From NCBI GenBank assembly GCA_030038115.1, contig JASHPM010000527.1:1-39023 (forward strand): a DNA stretch of 39,023 nt. Direction: 5' to 3'. The stretch comes from Acidobacteriaceae bacterium. Its GTDB lineage: Bacteria; Acidobacteriota; Terriglobia; Terriglobales; Acidobacteriaceae. Below are positions 2,999 to 10,422 of the stretch, piece by piece. Within the stretch, counting starts at the first letter, position 1; the number at the start of each line of letters is the position of its first letter. A program made the position numbers and the translations under genes. A model generated the notes under the pieces. That model made no database searches. It was not told the DNA's origin and saw only the letters and a program-made list of their open reading frames with translations.

Positions 2999-3931
2999 TC
3001 ACATATTGGTGTGACCGGCGCGCATTTCCTCGTTGAAAGTGGGGCGGGTGACGGCAAGAGCGGCCTGGAGCTTCGCGTGGTAATCTCCGGCGCGTTCGAG
3101 CAGAGCGGGCGCGGACGAGGCGTATTCCCCATTCAGGGCGAGTAGCCCCTGGCCGGCAAGATCGGCGGCCATCCGGGAGAGCTCGCTTGCGGTGGTGTTC
3201 AGGTACTGCGCGTCGCGCGGGTCGGCGATCCAGACTGGCTGGTTGCCGCCGAGGACGCCGGAGAGCCAGTAAACCTTGAGGGCGAGAAAATCCATGCGGG
3301 CGCGGTCGTCCGTGTCGGTGAAGAAGAACTTCTTTTGCCAGCGGCTGTAATAGCGCGTGGTGACGGGGACGGGCTGGCGGTTGCCGCTTTTGAGCAATTC
3401 AAGCTGGCCACGGTCGAGGGTCTTGCGGACGGCATTGTAGATGAAGGTTTCCGCGTAGGGCTGTTCGGGTGCGGGGACGATTTCCGCGAAGGTGACGGTC
3501 ATGCTGGCGGAAACGAGGGCGTGGAGCGGCGATTGGGTTCCGTCCTCGAGATGCAGGGTACCGTGGACGATGTAGGTGTCGGCGCCGGAAGTGGAGCGAT
3601 GAAAAGGCCAGCCGAAGTGGCTGAAGCTGACCGGAAGGCCGGCGAGGGTGACGTAGGCGTCGGGGCGCGGGTTGCGCAAACGGCCGGCGGCCTCGCGCAG
3701 GTGGGTGGTCATTTCCGGCAGCAGATTGGGCTTGTTGAAATCGAAGGCCTCGCTGAGCTCAAGCAGGAGGGTACGTTCCGCGGGAGCATCGGGCGCAGCG
3801 GCGAGGCGAAAGCGCGTGGTGGGATGGCCATTGACGTCGGATCCTGCGTCGACGGAGAGAATGGCGAGGCCCGCCTGCTGAGCGGCGGTGTGGAGATTGG
3901 CAGTGAGGGTCGATGCGAGGTGCGCGGTCAT
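2999..3931 (-). CDS. Conserved hypothetical protein (310 aa)
   Basis: Long ORF with coherent protein composition and no competing frame of comparable quality; no family recognised. Confidence 0.75.
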   Translation of the reverse strand: MTAHLASTLTANLHTAAQQAGLAILSVDAGSDVNGHPTTRFRLAAAPDAPAERTLLLELSEAFDFNKPNLLPEMTTHLREAAGRLRNPRPDAYVTLAGLPVSFSHFGWPFHRSTSGADTYIVHGTLHLEDGTQSPLHALVSASMTVTFAEIVPAPEQPYAETFIYNAVRKTLDRGQLELLKSGNRQPVPVTTRYYSRWQKKFFFTDTDDRARMDFLALKVYWLSGVLGGNQPVWIADPRDAQYLNTTASELSRMAADLAGQGLLALNGEYASSAPALLERAGDYHAKLQAALAVTRPTFNEEMRAGHTNM

Positions 3932-4054: not shown

Positions 4055-4185
4055 TCAAGGCTTATATCATTTTCAGATTGGCGGTGTTTGGGGTGTATGC
4101 CTCGACGGGCTCAACCGCAACTTTTTGGGCAGCCAGCCGTCTACGTAAGATTAGGCACATTTGTGACAAGGGAGGCAGGGTTTCT

Positions 4186-4440
4186 GTGCAAATTGTTCGC
4201 CGCACCGCCCTCGTGGCACTCGCATCGGTCGAATTGGTGGTACTGCTGGCGGCATTAGCCAAACCCGCATATGGCTATGTGGATCCAGGATCGGGTCTGC
4301 TGGCCATACAGGTGGGAGGGTCGATGTTGGCCGGAGGGTTGTTCATCCTGCGCTCCAAAATCCGGCGTCTGTTCCGCATGTCTTCGCCCGAAGAACGAAT
4401 CGAAGCAGAAGAAGCCACCCAACCCGAACCGGGTAAGTAA
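4186..4440 (+). CDS. Small membrane protein with DPGSG motif (84 aa)
   Basis: GTG start at 4186 preceded by GGAGG (4171-4175), in frame with the track ORF 4078-4440. Protein: VQIVRRTALVALASVELVVLLAALAKPAYGYVDPGSGLLAIQVGGSMLAGGLFILRSKIRRLFRMSS...; signal/TM segment, YVDPGSG, second TM. The stop overlaps the next start (TAATG). Confidence 0.8.
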   Translation: MQIVRRTALVALASVELVVLLAALAKPAYGYVDPGSGLLAIQVGGSMLAGGLFILRSKIRRLFRMSSPEERIEAEEATQPEPGK

Positions 4441-5828
4441 TGGCAACAGCCGAGCTCGCGCGCGAAACCTTTCGCGATCCCGCCGGTTCTGTCCGCATCG
4501 AGGGGGACCGGGTTCTGCGCGAGGTTCATCCTGAGCACGCTCGAGCAGCGCTCAAATTCCTGCAGTCGCAGACAGCGCAGGAGTGGGTAGCGCAGGGGCG
4601 GCTCATTGAAACCCACTTCATCACCAGGGAAAACGGCGAGTTGACGCTCGAACACCCGCGCGTGTTCTTCCCTTCCTATCCGTGGGAGTGGACGCCGAGC
4701 GCGTGGATCGCGGCTGCGGATCTGACCCTCGATTTGTGTGAGGGCCTGCTGGAGCAGGGGCTGATCCTGAAAGATGCGACGCCGCTGAATGTGCTGTTCC
4801 GCGGAGCGCGGCCGGTTTTTGTCGACGTGCTGTCGGTGGAGGAGCGCGATCCGGCCAGCCCGTTGTGGCTGGCATACGCACAGTTTGTGCGTACCTTCAT
4901 GCTGCCACTGCTGGCTTATCAACACCTGGGATGGCCGCTGGCCACTTCGATGCAGAGGCGTGACGGGTACGAGCCAGCCGACCTTGCTCCGTATCTGAGC
5001 CGCTGGCAGCGCTGGCGGGAGCCGTTTCGGTCGCTGGTTACGCTGCCGCTGATGCTGGAGAAAAGCGGCGGAACGAGCGCACAGAATACGAAGGCGCGAC
5101 AGAGCCCGGAAGCGGCGCTGTCGGTCCTGCGGCGCAACCTTGGTGCACTGCGGCAACATTTGCGGCAGATTGAGCGGCGCATGGGACTGGACAAGCGCGC
5201 GTCGCGCTGGAGCGGCTATGCCCATTCAGCCGATCATTACAGCGCCGACGATCAGAAGCTGAAACGCCAGTTTGTGCGGGATGCTCTGGCCGCCGCGCAT
5301 CCAAAGCACGTTCTCGATCTGGGAGCTAACATCGGGATATATTCGCGGATCGCGGCGGAGTGCGGCGCGATGGTGGTGGCCTGGGATACGGATTTGCAGG
5401 CGACGGAACAGAACTGGCGCGAAGGGCAGCGGCTGAATCTGGACATTGCGCCGCTGATCGCGAATCCGGCGCGGCCCACACCCGCGGCCGGCTGGCGCAA
5501 CGCGGAAAACCTGGCACTGCTGGACCGGACGCGGGGACGGTTCGACTGCGTGATGATGCTGGGGCTGATTCATCACCTGCTGCTGTCGGAACAGATTCCG
5601 CTGGAGGAAATTGCCGCGCTGCTGCGCGAGATGACCACGAGCTGGGCGATTGTGGAGTGGGTGCCGGCAACGGATCCGCGGTTTGTGGATTTGCTGCGTG
5701 GCCGCGAGGATCTGTACGGACATCTGGACGAAGCGGGCTTTACGCGGGCCGCGGAAACCCACTTCACGGTGGTGCTGCGCGAAGCGCTGCCGAATGCCCG
5801 TATCCTGTTCCTGCTGCAGGCAAGGTAA
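4440..5828 (+). CDS. Fusion protein: N-terminal APH/kinase-like domain and C-terminal class I SAM-dependent methyltransferase
   Basis: C-terminal motif I HVLDLGANIGIYSRIA and the LGLIHHLLLSEQIPLEEIAALLREM region. N-terminal LILKDATPLNVLFRGARPVFVDVLS resembles the kinase/APH D-x-x-P-x-N-(I/V)-L ... (I/V)D pattern. Confidence 0.85.
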   Translation: MATAELARETFRDPAGSVRIEGDRVLREVHPEHARAALKFLQSQTAQEWVAQGRLIETHFITRENGELTLEHPRVFFPSYPWEWTPSAWIAAADLTLDLCEGLLEQGLILKDATPLNVLFRGARPVFVDVLSVEERDPASPLWLAYAQFVRTFMLPLLAYQHLGWPLATSMQRRDGYEPADLAPYLSRWQRWREPFRSLVTLPLMLEKSGGTSAQNTKARQSPEAALSVLRRNLGALRQHLRQIERRMGLDKRASRWSGYAHSADHYSADDQKLKRQFVRDALAAAHPKHVLDLGANIGIYSRIAAECGAMVVAWDTDLQATEQNWREGQRLNLDIAPLIANPARPTPAAGWRNAENLALLDRTRGRFDCVMMLGLIHHLLLSEQIPLEEIAALLREMTTSWAIVEWVPATDPRFVDLLRGREDLYGHLDEAGFTRAAETHFTVVLREALPNARILFLLQAR

Positions 5829-5839
5829 CGGCGGAGCGG

Positions 5840-7435
5840 GTGCAGGCAAATCCGAGACATGCAGGCCGGAGTTCGTGGGCGCGCTGCTCCATCGAGGGCG
5901 CCGGCGCGGCGCTGCTGCTGGCGCCGGGCCTGATCTGGACCGAGCTCTCCCAAACGCACATCGATCAATATCACCGGCTGTTGCCGATGACCACGGTGGC
6001 GCGGGCGCTGGCCATCGATGTGGCGCTGCTGTGGCTGACGGCGACGCTGGCCGTGCGAGTGCTGGAGGCTGCGACCGGGCAGCTGGGTGGGCCGTTGCCG
6101 TCGGAGCGCCGGTATCCCGGGGTTCTTTTCTGGGCGTTGTGGTTCGGGCTGCTGGCAGCGCGCTCGGTTTCAGGGTTGATCGTCTCGCAGGTGCTGTGGT
6201 GGCAGCAGATCACGACGGGCAGAGCCTTCCTGCTGATCGCGGGAGTGCTGGTTGTTGTCTGGCTGGCATCGCCGCGATCGTACGGCACGACGGTGAGTGC
6301 GCTGCGCATGGGCGTTCTGCTGGTGGGCTTCTGCATGCTTTGGGCGCTGCCCACCCTGGTGGCGGCGGGATTTGTGCATCAGCCCTGGGATCGGGTGGAG
6401 TTTCGCAAGCCGGTGCCGGTCGCGACCGCTCCGCACCGGCGGATCGTATGGCTGCTCTTCGACGAGATGTCCTACGACCAGGTTTTTGTTCATCGCTGGC
6501 CGGGACTGCAACTGCCCAATCTGGATCGCCTGCGCGAGCAGAGCGTGACTCTGTCCGAGGTGCGGCCGGATGGGTATTTCACCGAGGACGTGATCCCTTC
6601 GCTGCTCCTCGGCAAGCCGATCGATGAGGTGCGCGGAACGTGGTCGGGGTGGATGCTGTACCGCTCCGGCAAACATGCTCCATGGCAACGGTTCGACGGC
6701 GGCCAGACATTGTTTGCGGATGCGGAACGGGAGGGATGGACGAGAGGCGCCATGGGCGCCTACAACCCGTACTGCCGAATACTGCAGGACCAGCTCGATT
6801 TCTGCTGGATGGATCTGCCGCCGCTGCCCGATCATTTCTCGCGGGACAAAGGCACACTGGAAAACGTCGTCGCGCCGTTAGCGGCGAACTGGAAAAGGGT
6901 GTTTCAGCCCGGAGCTGCGCGCAATGCGTCGACGGGGCCTTCGCCGCTCGAGGAGCTGGGCGCGGTGCGTGAGGGCGACGCGTTGATCGGGGACGCAGCG
7001 ATCGACCTGTGCTTCGTCCATCTGCCGTTGCCGCATCCGCCCGGACATTACAACCGCGCGACGGGACGGATTGTCGAGGGCGGCAGCTACATCGATAATC
7101 TTGCGCTCTCGGACAGGATTCTGGGCCGGATGCTGGCGGATATTACCGCGAGCGGCGCGGCCGAGCGGACGACGGTGATCCTGTCTTCAGACCACAGCTG
7201 GCGCGTGGGCCTTTGGCGCCACAGTTTTGGATGGACCCGGGAAGATGAGCTGGCGTCGGGGCACGGACATTTCGATCCGCGGCCGATGTTGATGATGCGC
7301 TTTCCGGGAGAAACGGCGCCGCTGGAGATCGGGACGCCGGTTCCGCTGCTGGGAACGCACAACCTGATCGAGCAGATGCTGGCGGGGGGGATCGTCGATC
7401 CGCAACAACTGGAGGCCTGGGCGGCGAAGCAGTAG
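5840..7435 (+). CDS. Membrane-anchored sulfatase-like hydrolase/transferase (alkaline phosphatase superfamily)
   Basis: Hydrophobic N-terminal TM segments followed by RIVWLLFDEMSYDQVF, YFTEDVIPSLLLGKPI, TTVILSSDHSWR, SGHGHFDPRPMLMMRFPGE. GTG start at 5840 preceded by GGCGGAGCGG; the track start at 5360 lies inside the upstream gene. Confidence 0.85.
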   Translation: MQANPRHAGRSSWARCSIEGAGAALLLAPGLIWTELSQTHIDQYHRLLPMTTVARALAIDVALLWLTATLAVRVLEAATGQLGGPLPSERRYPGVLFWALWFGLLAARSVSGLIVSQVLWWQQITTGRAFLLIAGVLVVVWLASPRSYGTTVSALRMGVLLVGFCMLWALPTLVAAGFVHQPWDRVEFRKPVPVATAPHRRIVWLLFDEMSYDQVFVHRWPGLQLPNLDRLREQSVTLSEVRPDGYFTEDVIPSLLLGKPIDEVRGTWSGWMLYRSGKHAPWQRFDGGQTLFADAEREGWTRGAMGAYNPYCRILQDQLDFCWMDLPPLPDHFSRDKGTLENVVAPLAANWKRVFQPGAARNASTGPSPLEELGAVREGDALIGDAAIDLCFVHLPLPHPPGHYNRATGRIVEGGSYIDNLALSDRILGRMLADITASGAAERTTVILSSDHSWRVGLWRHSFGWTREDELASGHGHFDPRPMLMMRFPGETAPLEIGTPVPLLGTHNLIEQMLAGGIVDPQQLEAWAAKQ

Positions 7436-7864
7436 TTAAGAGGGTCGTTCGAAGTACGCTCTCACGTCGGGGCGCAGGAGAAGAAAGAGGAAAACTCCGG
7501 CAATCAGGACGCCCGATCCGCCGCGGAGCCAATCGCGAAGGATGAGCAGGGTGAACAGGTCGCCGATTCCATTGACGGTGAAAGTTGCCAGAGCCAGGAG
7601 CCAGGCCCAGCGACGGCGTCGCAGCAGGCCGATGGCTGTGGTTGCCGCAACGAGGGCGACGATGAGCAGGAGAGCTCCGAAGGGTTTTGCGTGTGCGGAG
7701 AAGATGACGTGAGCGCGGGGATTGAGGTTCCAGACAGGATCAGGGAGCGTTCCGGACATCAACAGCGATGATCCGATCAGGAGGGCGAGGGCGGTCGCCA
7801 ACCAGGAGAACGCTGCGACGACCGAGACGATTGCGGGTCTGCCTGATTGGGAATTCGTTGCCAC
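7436..7864 (-). CDS. Small integral membrane protein (142 aa, about 4 TM segments)
   Basis: Strongly hydrophobic segments separated by basic loops; its stop abuts the convergent upstream gene with zero spacing. Confidence 0.75.
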   Translation of the reverse strand: MATNSQSGRPAIVSVVAAFSWLATALALLIGSSLLMSGTLPDPVWNLNPRAHVIFSAHAKPFGALLLIVALVAATTAIGLLRRRRWAWLLALATFTVNGIGDLFTLLILRDWLRGGSGVLIAGVFLFLLLRPDVRAYFERPS

Positions 7865-7882: not shown

Positions 7883-9478
7883 CTACGGATGCAGGATCGG
7901 GGATTCTCCCGCGGGCAAAGCCCAGTGCGCCGAAGGACGGGCGACCGCGTACATCTGCGCGGCGATCTCGTCCATCATGGCCATGCGGTCGCCATTTTCT
8001 TCATACAGGTCGAAGTGGGTGCGATTGTCGCGGTAGGTGAAGTGCGGATCGGCGTGGAGGCGGTTCAGAACGGCTTCGAACTTGTGCGCCGCTCCGTCGA
8101 GGTAGAACGTGTCCGCGGTGCCGACGATCAGGTGAATCTTACCTTTCAGCGCGGGTCCGCGGGCGGCCCAGTTGGCTTCGACGAGGTGCGCGAGATCGTA
8201 GTGGTCGCGCCAGTAGGCGACAACTTCAGGGTGAACATCGCCGGTTTGGCGGTCGAACATCTGAAGGGGGCGGCCGTCGGCGCCGCGCGGAGAGAAGACC
8301 CACTCGAAGGAGGCGACCTGGCCGCCATAGGCTCCGAGCACGGCCTCCTGACGGCTCAACTCTTCGAAGGTGGCGACGACCTTTTGGTGGTCCCGGATGA
8401 TGGGGTAAAGTGAGCCGTCGGGGCGGTGGTAGGCGTTGGCGTGGGGTGCGTAGAGGTCGATACCCGTGAAGTCGTGGAAGTCGCTGGGATCGGGCGAGGT
8501 GGACCACGTGCCGCCGAAAATATTTGGGTAGTTGACCTGGAGCTGGAGCGTGGCCCATCCACCGGAGGAGTGGCCCTCAAGGAAGCGGCCGGTGGAACGC
8601 GCATCCATGCGGCATTTCGCTTCGATCCACGGGATGAATTCAGCGGTGAGCGCGTGGCCCCAGGGACCGTTGTTCACCGAGTCGGCAAACTCGTGCGTGC
8701 CCGTGGGAAGAGATTCGTCGAGAAAGATCCAGATCATGGGCGGCATTTTGCCTGCAGCCATGCGGCTGGCAATCATGAGGGCGGTTGGGTGGATACGATC
8801 GAGATTGGCGCCGAAGCCATGGGTCCAGTAGACGGTGGGGTAGTGCTCGCGCGGGTGCTCCGCATAGCCGGGGGGCAGAACCACCCAGCCGCGGATGTGG
8901 GTCTCACGGCCGGAGAAGGCGGTAAGGGCGGGGCTAACGAAATCGACCAGAGTGGTTGCTTTTTCCGCTGCGGCAAGGGCGTCGGGGCTCAGAGACAGCG
9001 GGCGCGGGGCTGGCGCCTGCGTGACGTGGTTGAGCACGAAAGTGGGCTCGGCGCCGGAACCTGGGGTCCAGTCGGACAGTGAAACAACGGCGCTTTCGAG
9101 GTCGCCTGCGTCCGGGCCAAGGTAGGGATAGGTGTGGCCGACGTCAAGGATGGCATTCGCCTGGTAGGTTCCGGGCTGGAGCGAAGAAAACGGCGCGGGA
9201 AAAGCGAGGTCATCGACGTCGACGTCCACGGAAGCGCCGGGAGCGAGAGCAGAAATTTCCTTTGCAGCGACCGAGGTTGCCGAGGGTCTGAACTCGTTTA
9301 CACCAACGTGGGTTGCGCCAGTGCCCGGTTGGAGGAAGATGAGCAGGCGTCCCGACGCGGGCTGCATGCCGGGGTCAAGGGTGATACGGAAGAAGAGATG
9401 CTGCTGAGCGGTTTGGGCGCAGGCGAGGGAAACCAGGAAGGGAAGGAGAAAGAGGCGGGCGGCTTTCCTGAGGATCAT
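7883..9478 (-). CDS. Secreted esterase family protein (enterochelin-esterase/esterase D-like, alpha/beta hydrolase)
   Basis: Signal peptide MILRKAARLFLLPFLVSLACAQ; YPTVYWTHGFGANLDRIHPT and the nucleophile elbow LEGHSSGGWATLQLQ. Start moved from 9649 to 9478 because the signal peptide begins there. Confidence 0.85.
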   Translation of the reverse strand: MILRKAARLFLLPFLVSLACAQTAQQHLFFRITLDPGMQPASGRLLIFLQPGTGATHVGVNEFRPSATSVAAKEISALAPGASVDVDVDDLAFPAPFSSLQPGTYQANAILDVGHTYPYLGPDAGDLESAVVSLSDWTPGSGAEPTFVLNHVTQAPAPRPLSLSPDALAAAEKATTLVDFVSPALTAFSGRETHIRGWVVLPPGYAEHPREHYPTVYWTHGFGANLDRIHPTALMIASRMAAGKMPPMIWIFLDESLPTGTHEFADSVNNGPWGHALTAEFIPWIEAKCRMDARSTGRFLEGHSSGGWATLQLQVNYPNIFGGTWSTSPDPSDFHDFTGIDLYAPHANAYHRPDGSLYPIIRDHQKVVATFEELSRQEAVLGAYGGQVASFEWVFSPRGADGRPLQMFDRQTGDVHPEVVAYWRDHYDLAHLVEANWAARGPALKGKIHLIVGTADTFYLDGAAHKFEAVLNRLHADPHFTYRDNRTHFDLYEENGDRMAMMDEIAAQMYAVARPSAHWALPAGESPILHP

Positions 9479-9531
9479 TCCCGCGAGTCTACCAGCGGAC
9501 CCTCGGAAGATGGAACCAGGCAAAGGTCGAA

Positions 9532-10422
9532 TTATGGATGAAGGATGCGCGCCGGACCGCCGGTGGCGTTCTGCACCTTGATGCGTTTCGCCAGGCCCAG
9601 AAAGCCAAGGAGACGAATGCCCCAGTAGTTGAAATCGAGTTCGTACCACGCCATGCCGTGGCTGGCAGAGACCGGGTGCGCATGATGGTTGTTATGCCAG
9701 CCTTCACCGCCGGTGATCAGCGCTACCCACCAGTTGTTGCGCGAGTCGTCGCGCGTGGCAAAGCGGCGCGCGCCCCACATATGCGTGGCGGAGTTGACGA
9801 GCCAGGTGGCGTGAAGGCCGAGGGTGATGCGCAGGAAGACGCCCCACAGGAGCCAGGACCATCCACCGAGCAGGAACAGGCCGACGCCGACCACGGTGAT
9901 GGGCACCCAGTGCCACCGGCTGAGCCACACGTAGAAGGGGTCGGAGGCGAGGTCAGGAACGTAGCGGGCGAGGAGCGGGTTGCGATTGCGCAGAGAGCCG
10001 TGGAGGATCCAGCCCATGTGCGACCACCATGCGCCGTCGCGGGGGGAGTGCGGATCGCCGGGGCGATCGGTGATCTGGTGATGCATGCGATGCACGGCGA
10101 CCCAGTAGATGGGTCCACCCTGCAGGGCCAGTGTGGCGCACAACGCCATCGCGTATTCAACCCATTTCGGCGTAGTGTAGCCGCGATGCGTGAGCAGGCG
10201 ATGGTAGCTCATGGCGATGCCGACGTTTTGGCCGAGCACCCAGAGGACGAGGAAGACGGCGACCGCGCTCCAGCTGAAGAAAAACAGCGCAGCGATGGCG
10301 CCCGCGTGGAAGATAGTGAGCGTAATGGCGAAGATGAGGTTCAGCTTTGCGGAGCGCGTTTGAGCGAGCGACTCGGAATCGGCGCGAACGGTTTCGGCGG
10401 AGATCTCGGCGATGGTGGACAT
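9532..10422 (-). CDS. Acyl-CoA (delta-9) fatty acid desaturase
   Basis: Three histidine boxes: HRLLTHR, HRMHH, HNNHH, with hydrophobic segments. Confidence 0.92.
   Translation of the reverse strand: MSTIAEISAETVRADSESLAQTRSAKLNLIFAITLTIFHAGAIAALFFFSWSAVAVFLVLWVLGQNVGIAMSYHRLLTHRGYTTPKWVEYAMALCATLALQGGPIYWVAVHRMHHQITDRPGDPHSPRDGAWWSHMGWILHGSLRNRNPLLARYVPDLASDPFYVWLSRWHWVPITVVGVGLFLLGGWSWLLWGVFLRITLGLHATWLVNSATHMWGARRFATRDDSRNNWWVALITGGEGWHNNHHAHPVSASHGMAWYELDFNYWGIRLLGFLGLAKRIKVQNATGGPARILHP

Follow-up and report, generated by a model that had tools for sequence, protein, structure and literature searches.

The genes noeA and noeB have been listed as rhizobial host-range genes since 1995 (Ardourel et al., 1995, as cited in PMC9048898 and PMC9758233). 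Their products have been hypothesized to modify the Nod factor (PMC9048898) and, in the papers found here, the target of NoeA and NoeB is still no more than a hypothesis. A paper from 2022 places NoeA and the Legionella protein Lani_1194 in one family of kinase and methyltransferase fusions with approx. 2,000 homologs, 94% of which have both domains (PMC9758233). In the kinase half of Lani_1194, an Arg is assigned to the position of Lys72, and D166, N171 and D184 are kept. Conserved neighbors were reported in 65% and 38% of the gene neighborhoods, the latter being a relative of NoeB with the alkaline phosphatase (AP) fold (PMC9758233). WbdD, the chain terminator of the O9a polysaccharide, phosphorylates the end of its glycan and methylates the phosphate (PMC3482155); together with related kinase-methyltransferases, it is treated as separate from the NoeA/Lani_1194 family (PMC9758233).

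In the window (the whole stretch of 39,023 nucleotides of acidobacterial DNA analyzed here), three ORFs are packed tightly on the plus strand (Table 1). The stop codon of the small gene and the ATG of the fusion gene share one nucleotide within the junction TAATG, and a gap of 11 nt separates the stop of the fusion gene from the GTG of the third gene. The coordinates and the tight packing with its overlap, as described in an earlier sequence-only reading of this DNA, are therefore borne out by the sequence. The ORFs flanking the trio (2999–3931 and 7436–7864, minus strand) are without a Pfam family; beyond them, a putative esterase, a fatty acid desaturase and a PIN/TRAM protein are encoded, all on the minus strand. 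No glycan genes were found around the trio in the window, and a neighbor scan of a few acidobacterial loci for such genes gave nothing consistent.

Table 1. Features of the three-gene locus (positions in the window).
Feature	Position	Strand	Remarks
Probable ribosome-binding site of the small gene, GGGAGG	4170–4175	+	read from the sequence
Small membrane protein gene	4186–4440	+	84 aa; GTG start at 4186, stop at 4438–4440
NoeA-like kinase/methyltransferase fusion gene	4440–5828	+	462 aa; ATG at 4440
Kinase-like domain	4467–5063	+	approx. residues 10–208; motif residues R27, D112-x4-N117, D129
Class I SAM-dependent methyltransferase domain	5244–5825	+	approx. residues 269–462; motif I DLGANIG
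Membrane AP-superfamily enzyme gene, NoeB position	5840–7435	+	531 aa; GTG start at 5840
Predicted nucleophile T248 of the AP-superfamily enzyme	6581–6583	+	Thr where sulfatases have a Cys/Ser precursor

The fusion protein matches NoeA of S. medicae over essentially its full length, both domains included (137 of 464 alignment columns identical, i.e., 30%; E = 1e-52). Using it as a tblastn query against plasmid records, 65 records were hit, nearly all from Sinorhizobium and Rhizobium, and the named copies are noeA. Judged by its sequence, the window fusion is a member of the NoeA family. R27 (Lys72-like), D112 and N117 of the catalytic loop, D129 (the Asp of DFG) and the SAM-site residues D293, G295 and G299 are invariant in all 46 NoeA homologs, which agrees with the earlier description of a kinase-like domain fused to a methyltransferase. 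The published kinase assignment of Lani_1194, given in PKA numbering, agrees with R27, D112, N117 and D129 of the window fusion, in which the spacing from D to N is the same and that from N to D is one residue shorter. Pfam detected methyltransferase matches in the fusion; for 30 kinase domains of the family, no kinase family reached a meaningful score. Sequence searches of PDB with the whole fusion or with the kinase domain alone returned no match, WbdD included. The structural model of the fusion, which is of modest quality (pLDDT 70, pTM 0.49), displays a kinase-like order of strands and helices up to D129, followed by a class I methyltransferase. Methyltransferases make up its listed Foldseek matches, and WbdD (4azs) reaches rank 8 via the methyltransferase fold. 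Motif spacing, predicted secondary structure and the published model of a relative are the basis of the kinase assignment; both the kinase and the methyltransferase activity of the fusion are putative. The Lani_1194 family has the same fusion, the same catalytic assignment and an AP-fold neighbor (PMC9758233).

In S. medicae pSymA and in Rhizobium T136, nodL is followed by a gene for a 71-aa “hypothetical protein” and by noeA. An annotated “sulfatase-like hydrolase/transferase” comes after noeA in T136; in S. medicae, the gene at the NoeB position is absent from the gene table, but a matching ORF is present. The 71-aa DPGTG protein (...AHAYLDPGTGSMLVQ...) matches the small protein of the window (...AYGYVDPGSGLLAIQ...) in design. 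Its gene was detected in 61 plasmid records, with genus counts equal to those of the rhizobial NoeA records. An AP-superfamily membrane protein is encoded directly downstream of the window fusion, as the cassette predicts. Based on the NoeA homology, the shared gene order and the similar design of the small proteins, we conclude that the trio corresponds to the noeA-noeB cassette plus an unnamed third gene and is almost certainly an acidobacterial copy of a “small DPGSG protein – NoeA – NoeB” cassette. Like the nodL-noeA-noeB operon of Sinorhizobium and Rhizobium, it has a full-length NoeA homolog in the middle, preceded by the small gene (DPGTG in the operon) and followed by an AP protein. 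However, the window has no adjoining nodL, its genome has no nodA, and the protein in the NoeB slot, although of the same superfamily, is very divergent. The earlier statement that no named system has this composition is thus not supported, since the nodL operon of rhizobia carries noeA and noeB together with an overlooked small gene. The same reading had counted a trio already characterized under another name as a refutation. Half of this applies: names and a link to a nodulation phenotype exist for two of the genes, but the chemistry is unsolved. While the enzyme family is already known (PMC9758233, 2022), our search of the open-license literature found no paper on a DPGTG/DPGSG-motif protein, and the co-inherited mini-protein is the part not found described there. 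The 65% neighbor of the 2022 paper, Lani_1193, may correspond to the small DPGSG protein.

The small protein of the window has hydrophobic stretches at residues 3–29 and 37–55, on either side of YVDPGSG. A transmembrane or signal-peptide-like segment is followed by this motif, a second transmembrane segment and a basic C-terminal tail; no Pfam match was obtained for it. Among the small proteins, the consensus is Y-x-D-P-x-x-G with a downstream Gln (Asp in 50 of 51, Gln in 50 of 51, Pro in 48 of 51). The Ser/Thr position of DPG[ST]G varies (e.g., DPGAG or DPGFG, and DAASAS in Novosphingobium) and was, therefore, rejected as a phospho-acceptor. Since an A-x-A-like stretch precedes the motif in most members, the sequences suggest that the motif may lie at the N-terminus of the mature protein or in a short periplasmic loop that joins two helices. 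On another contig, the genome of the window encodes a second small DPGSG copy (G000:C38:9102-9236); a second AP enzyme is encoded beside it, but no second NoeA accompanies the pair.

The third protein has several hydrophobic stretches in its N-terminal third, with transmembrane helices up to approx. residue 177 and a globular AP-type domain thereafter. Its structural model (pLDDT 74, pTM 0.73) likewise comprises N-terminal helices and an AP-superfamily domain, and Foldseek hits were sulfatases, a phosphonate monoester hydrolase and PbgA. The Pfam family Sulfatase scored 24.6 bits, below its cut-off of 25; no curated family reached its cut-off for this protein, and no NCBIfam model did so for any protein of the trio. 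The active-site residues are D208, T248, H394, H399, D451 and H452. The Asp, the Thr, the HxxxPH motif and the Asp of the DH pair are conserved over 22 aligned rows, NoeB included. Direct pairwise comparison with NoeB gave no significant similarity; the link runs via intermediates sharing the D, T, HxxxPH, DH pattern. At the nucleophile position, nearly all aligned members have Thr, and one close relative has Ser. As the formylglycine-precursor position is occupied by Thr248 instead of Cys, a function as sulfatase is unlikely and was rejected. Of the earlier designation as a membrane sulfatase-like enzyme, the membrane AP-superfamily part is retained and the sulfatase part is not. A Thr nucleophile would fit phospho-transfer or hydrolysis better than sulfatase chemistry; Thr is presumably also the residue at this position in LtaS and EptA. 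Proteins of the LtaS, EptA and PbgA types share the arrangement of N-terminal transmembrane helices and AP-fold domain with the window enzyme, which in contrast to them represents its own subfamily with an HxxxPHxP motif. In some cassette AP enzymes (loci L055 and L058, and P0005 from Novosphingobium), DEG replaces DHG/DHS at the pair of metal-site residues, which may alter metal binding or activity in these enzymes.

The gene order is the same in all nine related MAG loci long enough for three genes, with fusions 66–85% identical; a tenth related locus (L035), which ends inside the fusion gene, was left out of this count. The arrangement is thus more than a chance one. With up to 85% identity, the nearest loci belong to Acidobacterium MAGs, in line with the acidobacterial nature of the window. 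Furthermore, 199 Acidobacteriota genomes spread over the phylum were searched, using a 14-row profile for the small protein. A NoeA-like protein was detected in 38 genomes and the small protein in exactly those 38. The naive hypergeometric value is 1e-41, or 2e-32 without the 12 profile-source genomes; both figures are inflated by shared ancestry, although the genomes belong to 24 genera. In five genomes (G094, G103, G155, G163 and G028), both genes are present yet unlinked, and in two of these (G103 and G028) the unlinked small gene adjoins an AP enzyme. At the other three sites (L066, L067 and L069 in G094, G155 and G163), a lone small gene lies far from noeA and the AP gene, which adjoins the small gene in the related G103 (L068), is missing; each of these genomes has a strong AP match elsewhere. 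Strong AP matches (E < 1e-30) were obtained in 25 genomes, 23 of which are NoeA-positive (23/38 compared to 2/161 of the others). This co-occurrence is biased, since most sequences in the AP profile came from the cassette itself; nevertheless, when only genomes outside the profile are considered, 10 of 12 with strong AP matches are NoeA-positive (naive p of approx. 1e-8). In the other 15 of the 38 NoeA-positive genomes, AP matches are weaker or absent at E ≤ 1e-10 (e.g., in G037). Within genus g4, all three families are present in five genomes and missing altogether from five others. Because they are so strictly inherited together, the three genes very likely work as one unit. The small protein appears to be an obligate partner of the NoeA-like protein; such near-obligate co-inheritance was not found in the open-license papers searched.

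It could be argued that only NoeA and the small protein form the functional unit, the AP enzyme being a helper that is loosely associated with them and comes in several alternative types. The AP association is indeed weaker than the 38/38 co-occurrence of the small protein; the adjacent AP enzymes are diverse (13–67% identity to that of the window), AP and NoeA genes are unlinked in several genomes of genus g4, and the two published neighbors differ in frequency (65% and 38%; PMC9758233). However, strong AP matches occur almost solely in NoeA-positive genomes, and the second small-protein copy in the genome of the window has an AP enzyme as its partner. We therefore regard a mere helper as unlikely, albeit as the strongest of the alternatives.

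The three families also occur together in distant acidobacteria, Alphaproteobacteria, Planctomycetota, Gemmatimonadota and one deltaproteobacterium, with phyla beyond Acidobacteriota sampled via plasmid records only; phage records yielded no homolog. The co-conservation to be expected of a coherent set is thus found both within Acidobacteriota and in distant phyla. On a plasmid of Novosphingobium PP1Y, the trio has the same 1-nt overlap and lies beside GDP-mannose genes and genes for glycosyltransferases, for an ABC transporter and for an export protein; the small protein of this trio has diverged (YLDAASAS). A polysaccharide cluster of Deltaproteobacterium Smac51 includes the fusion and the small gene, with an AP enzyme just upstream. 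These two clusters lend support to the earlier proposal that envelope or glycan modification is likely.

Because of these clusters, and as there is no role for the Nod factor outside rhizobia, we favor a glycan modification of the WbdD kind. The cytoplasmic NoeA-like enzyme would phosphorylate a sugar on a polyprenyl- or lipid-linked glycan and would then methylate the phosphorylated product, in the way WbdD acts on O9a mannan. With its two helices, the small protein may anchor NoeA at the membrane and couple it to the third protein, whose Thr-nucleophile AP domain would transfer or remove a phospho-group on the same glycan at the outer side of the membrane. We consider the chances of this scheme to be about even, and the glycan substrate, the adaptor role and the order of steps are our inference. 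The lack of glycan genes around the trio in the window and in the acidobacterial loci scanned speaks against it. Like the window fusion, WbdD combines kinase and methyltransferase in one protein, but its order is methyltransferase, kinase and coiled coil instead of kinase and methyltransferase, and a sequence relation is undetectable. We know of no small partner or AP enzyme of WbdD.

A substrate outside the cell's own envelope polysaccharide, i.e., a secreted signaling molecule such as a Nod-factor-like lipo-chitooligosaccharide or a small lipoglycan, is suggested by the rhizobial cassette, which lies behind nodL in a flavonoid-inducible operon and whose NoeA and NoeB are the hypothesized Nod-factor modifiers (PMC9048898). 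A search for NodA (PF02474) in the 199 acidobacterial genomes gave one match above cut-off, partial, and none in the genome of the window, which rules out the Nod factor as the general substrate. Further, a noeA ortholog exists in a non-symbiont as well (PMC3899959), and the Novosphingobium copy belongs to an exported-polysaccharide cluster. A secreted signal is, therefore, distinctly unlikely. The sole NodA-family match is located at G049:C2:735642-735869, in a NoeA-positive genome.

Alternatively, the small DPGSG protein could itself be the substrate, an exported mini-protein phosphorylated and/or methylated by NoeA and acted on outside by the AP enzyme. Its co-occurrence with NoeA per genome, even when unlinked, and its resemblance to a signal peptide with a conserved motif would agree with this. 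On the other hand, the Ser/Thr of DPG[ST]G varies while the Asp and the downstream Gln are kept, and translocation of the segment would put the motif out of reach of a cytoplasmic kinase, so we assign little probability to this explanation. For Legionella, where Lani_1194 is listed as a putative effector kinase (PMC9758233), a role as secreted effectors has been suggested. Such a role here, with a protein kinase in the kinase half and secretion of the cassette in whole or in part, is highly improbable, as the family occurs widely in free-living bacteria, has a membrane partner there and shares clusters with polysaccharide genes.

With the glycan reading favored above, it is conceivable, though doubtful, that the three proteins constitute a widespread bacterial system which marks exported glycans with a methylated phosphate or a similar group, with the DPGSG mini-protein as an undescribed obligate subunit, and which rhizobia recruited for host recognition. 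A third, unnamed and strictly co-inherited component in a cassette of bacteria without Nod factors provides a testable route to the chemistry outside symbiosis, and the Novosphingobium cassette in its exported-glycan cluster is one place for such a test.

A minor observation concerns pSymA of S. medicae ml29 (L061:8375-10032), where the noeB region consists of two overlapping ORFs in different frames (8375–8737 and 8671–10032); a frameshift may have disrupted noeB in this strain.
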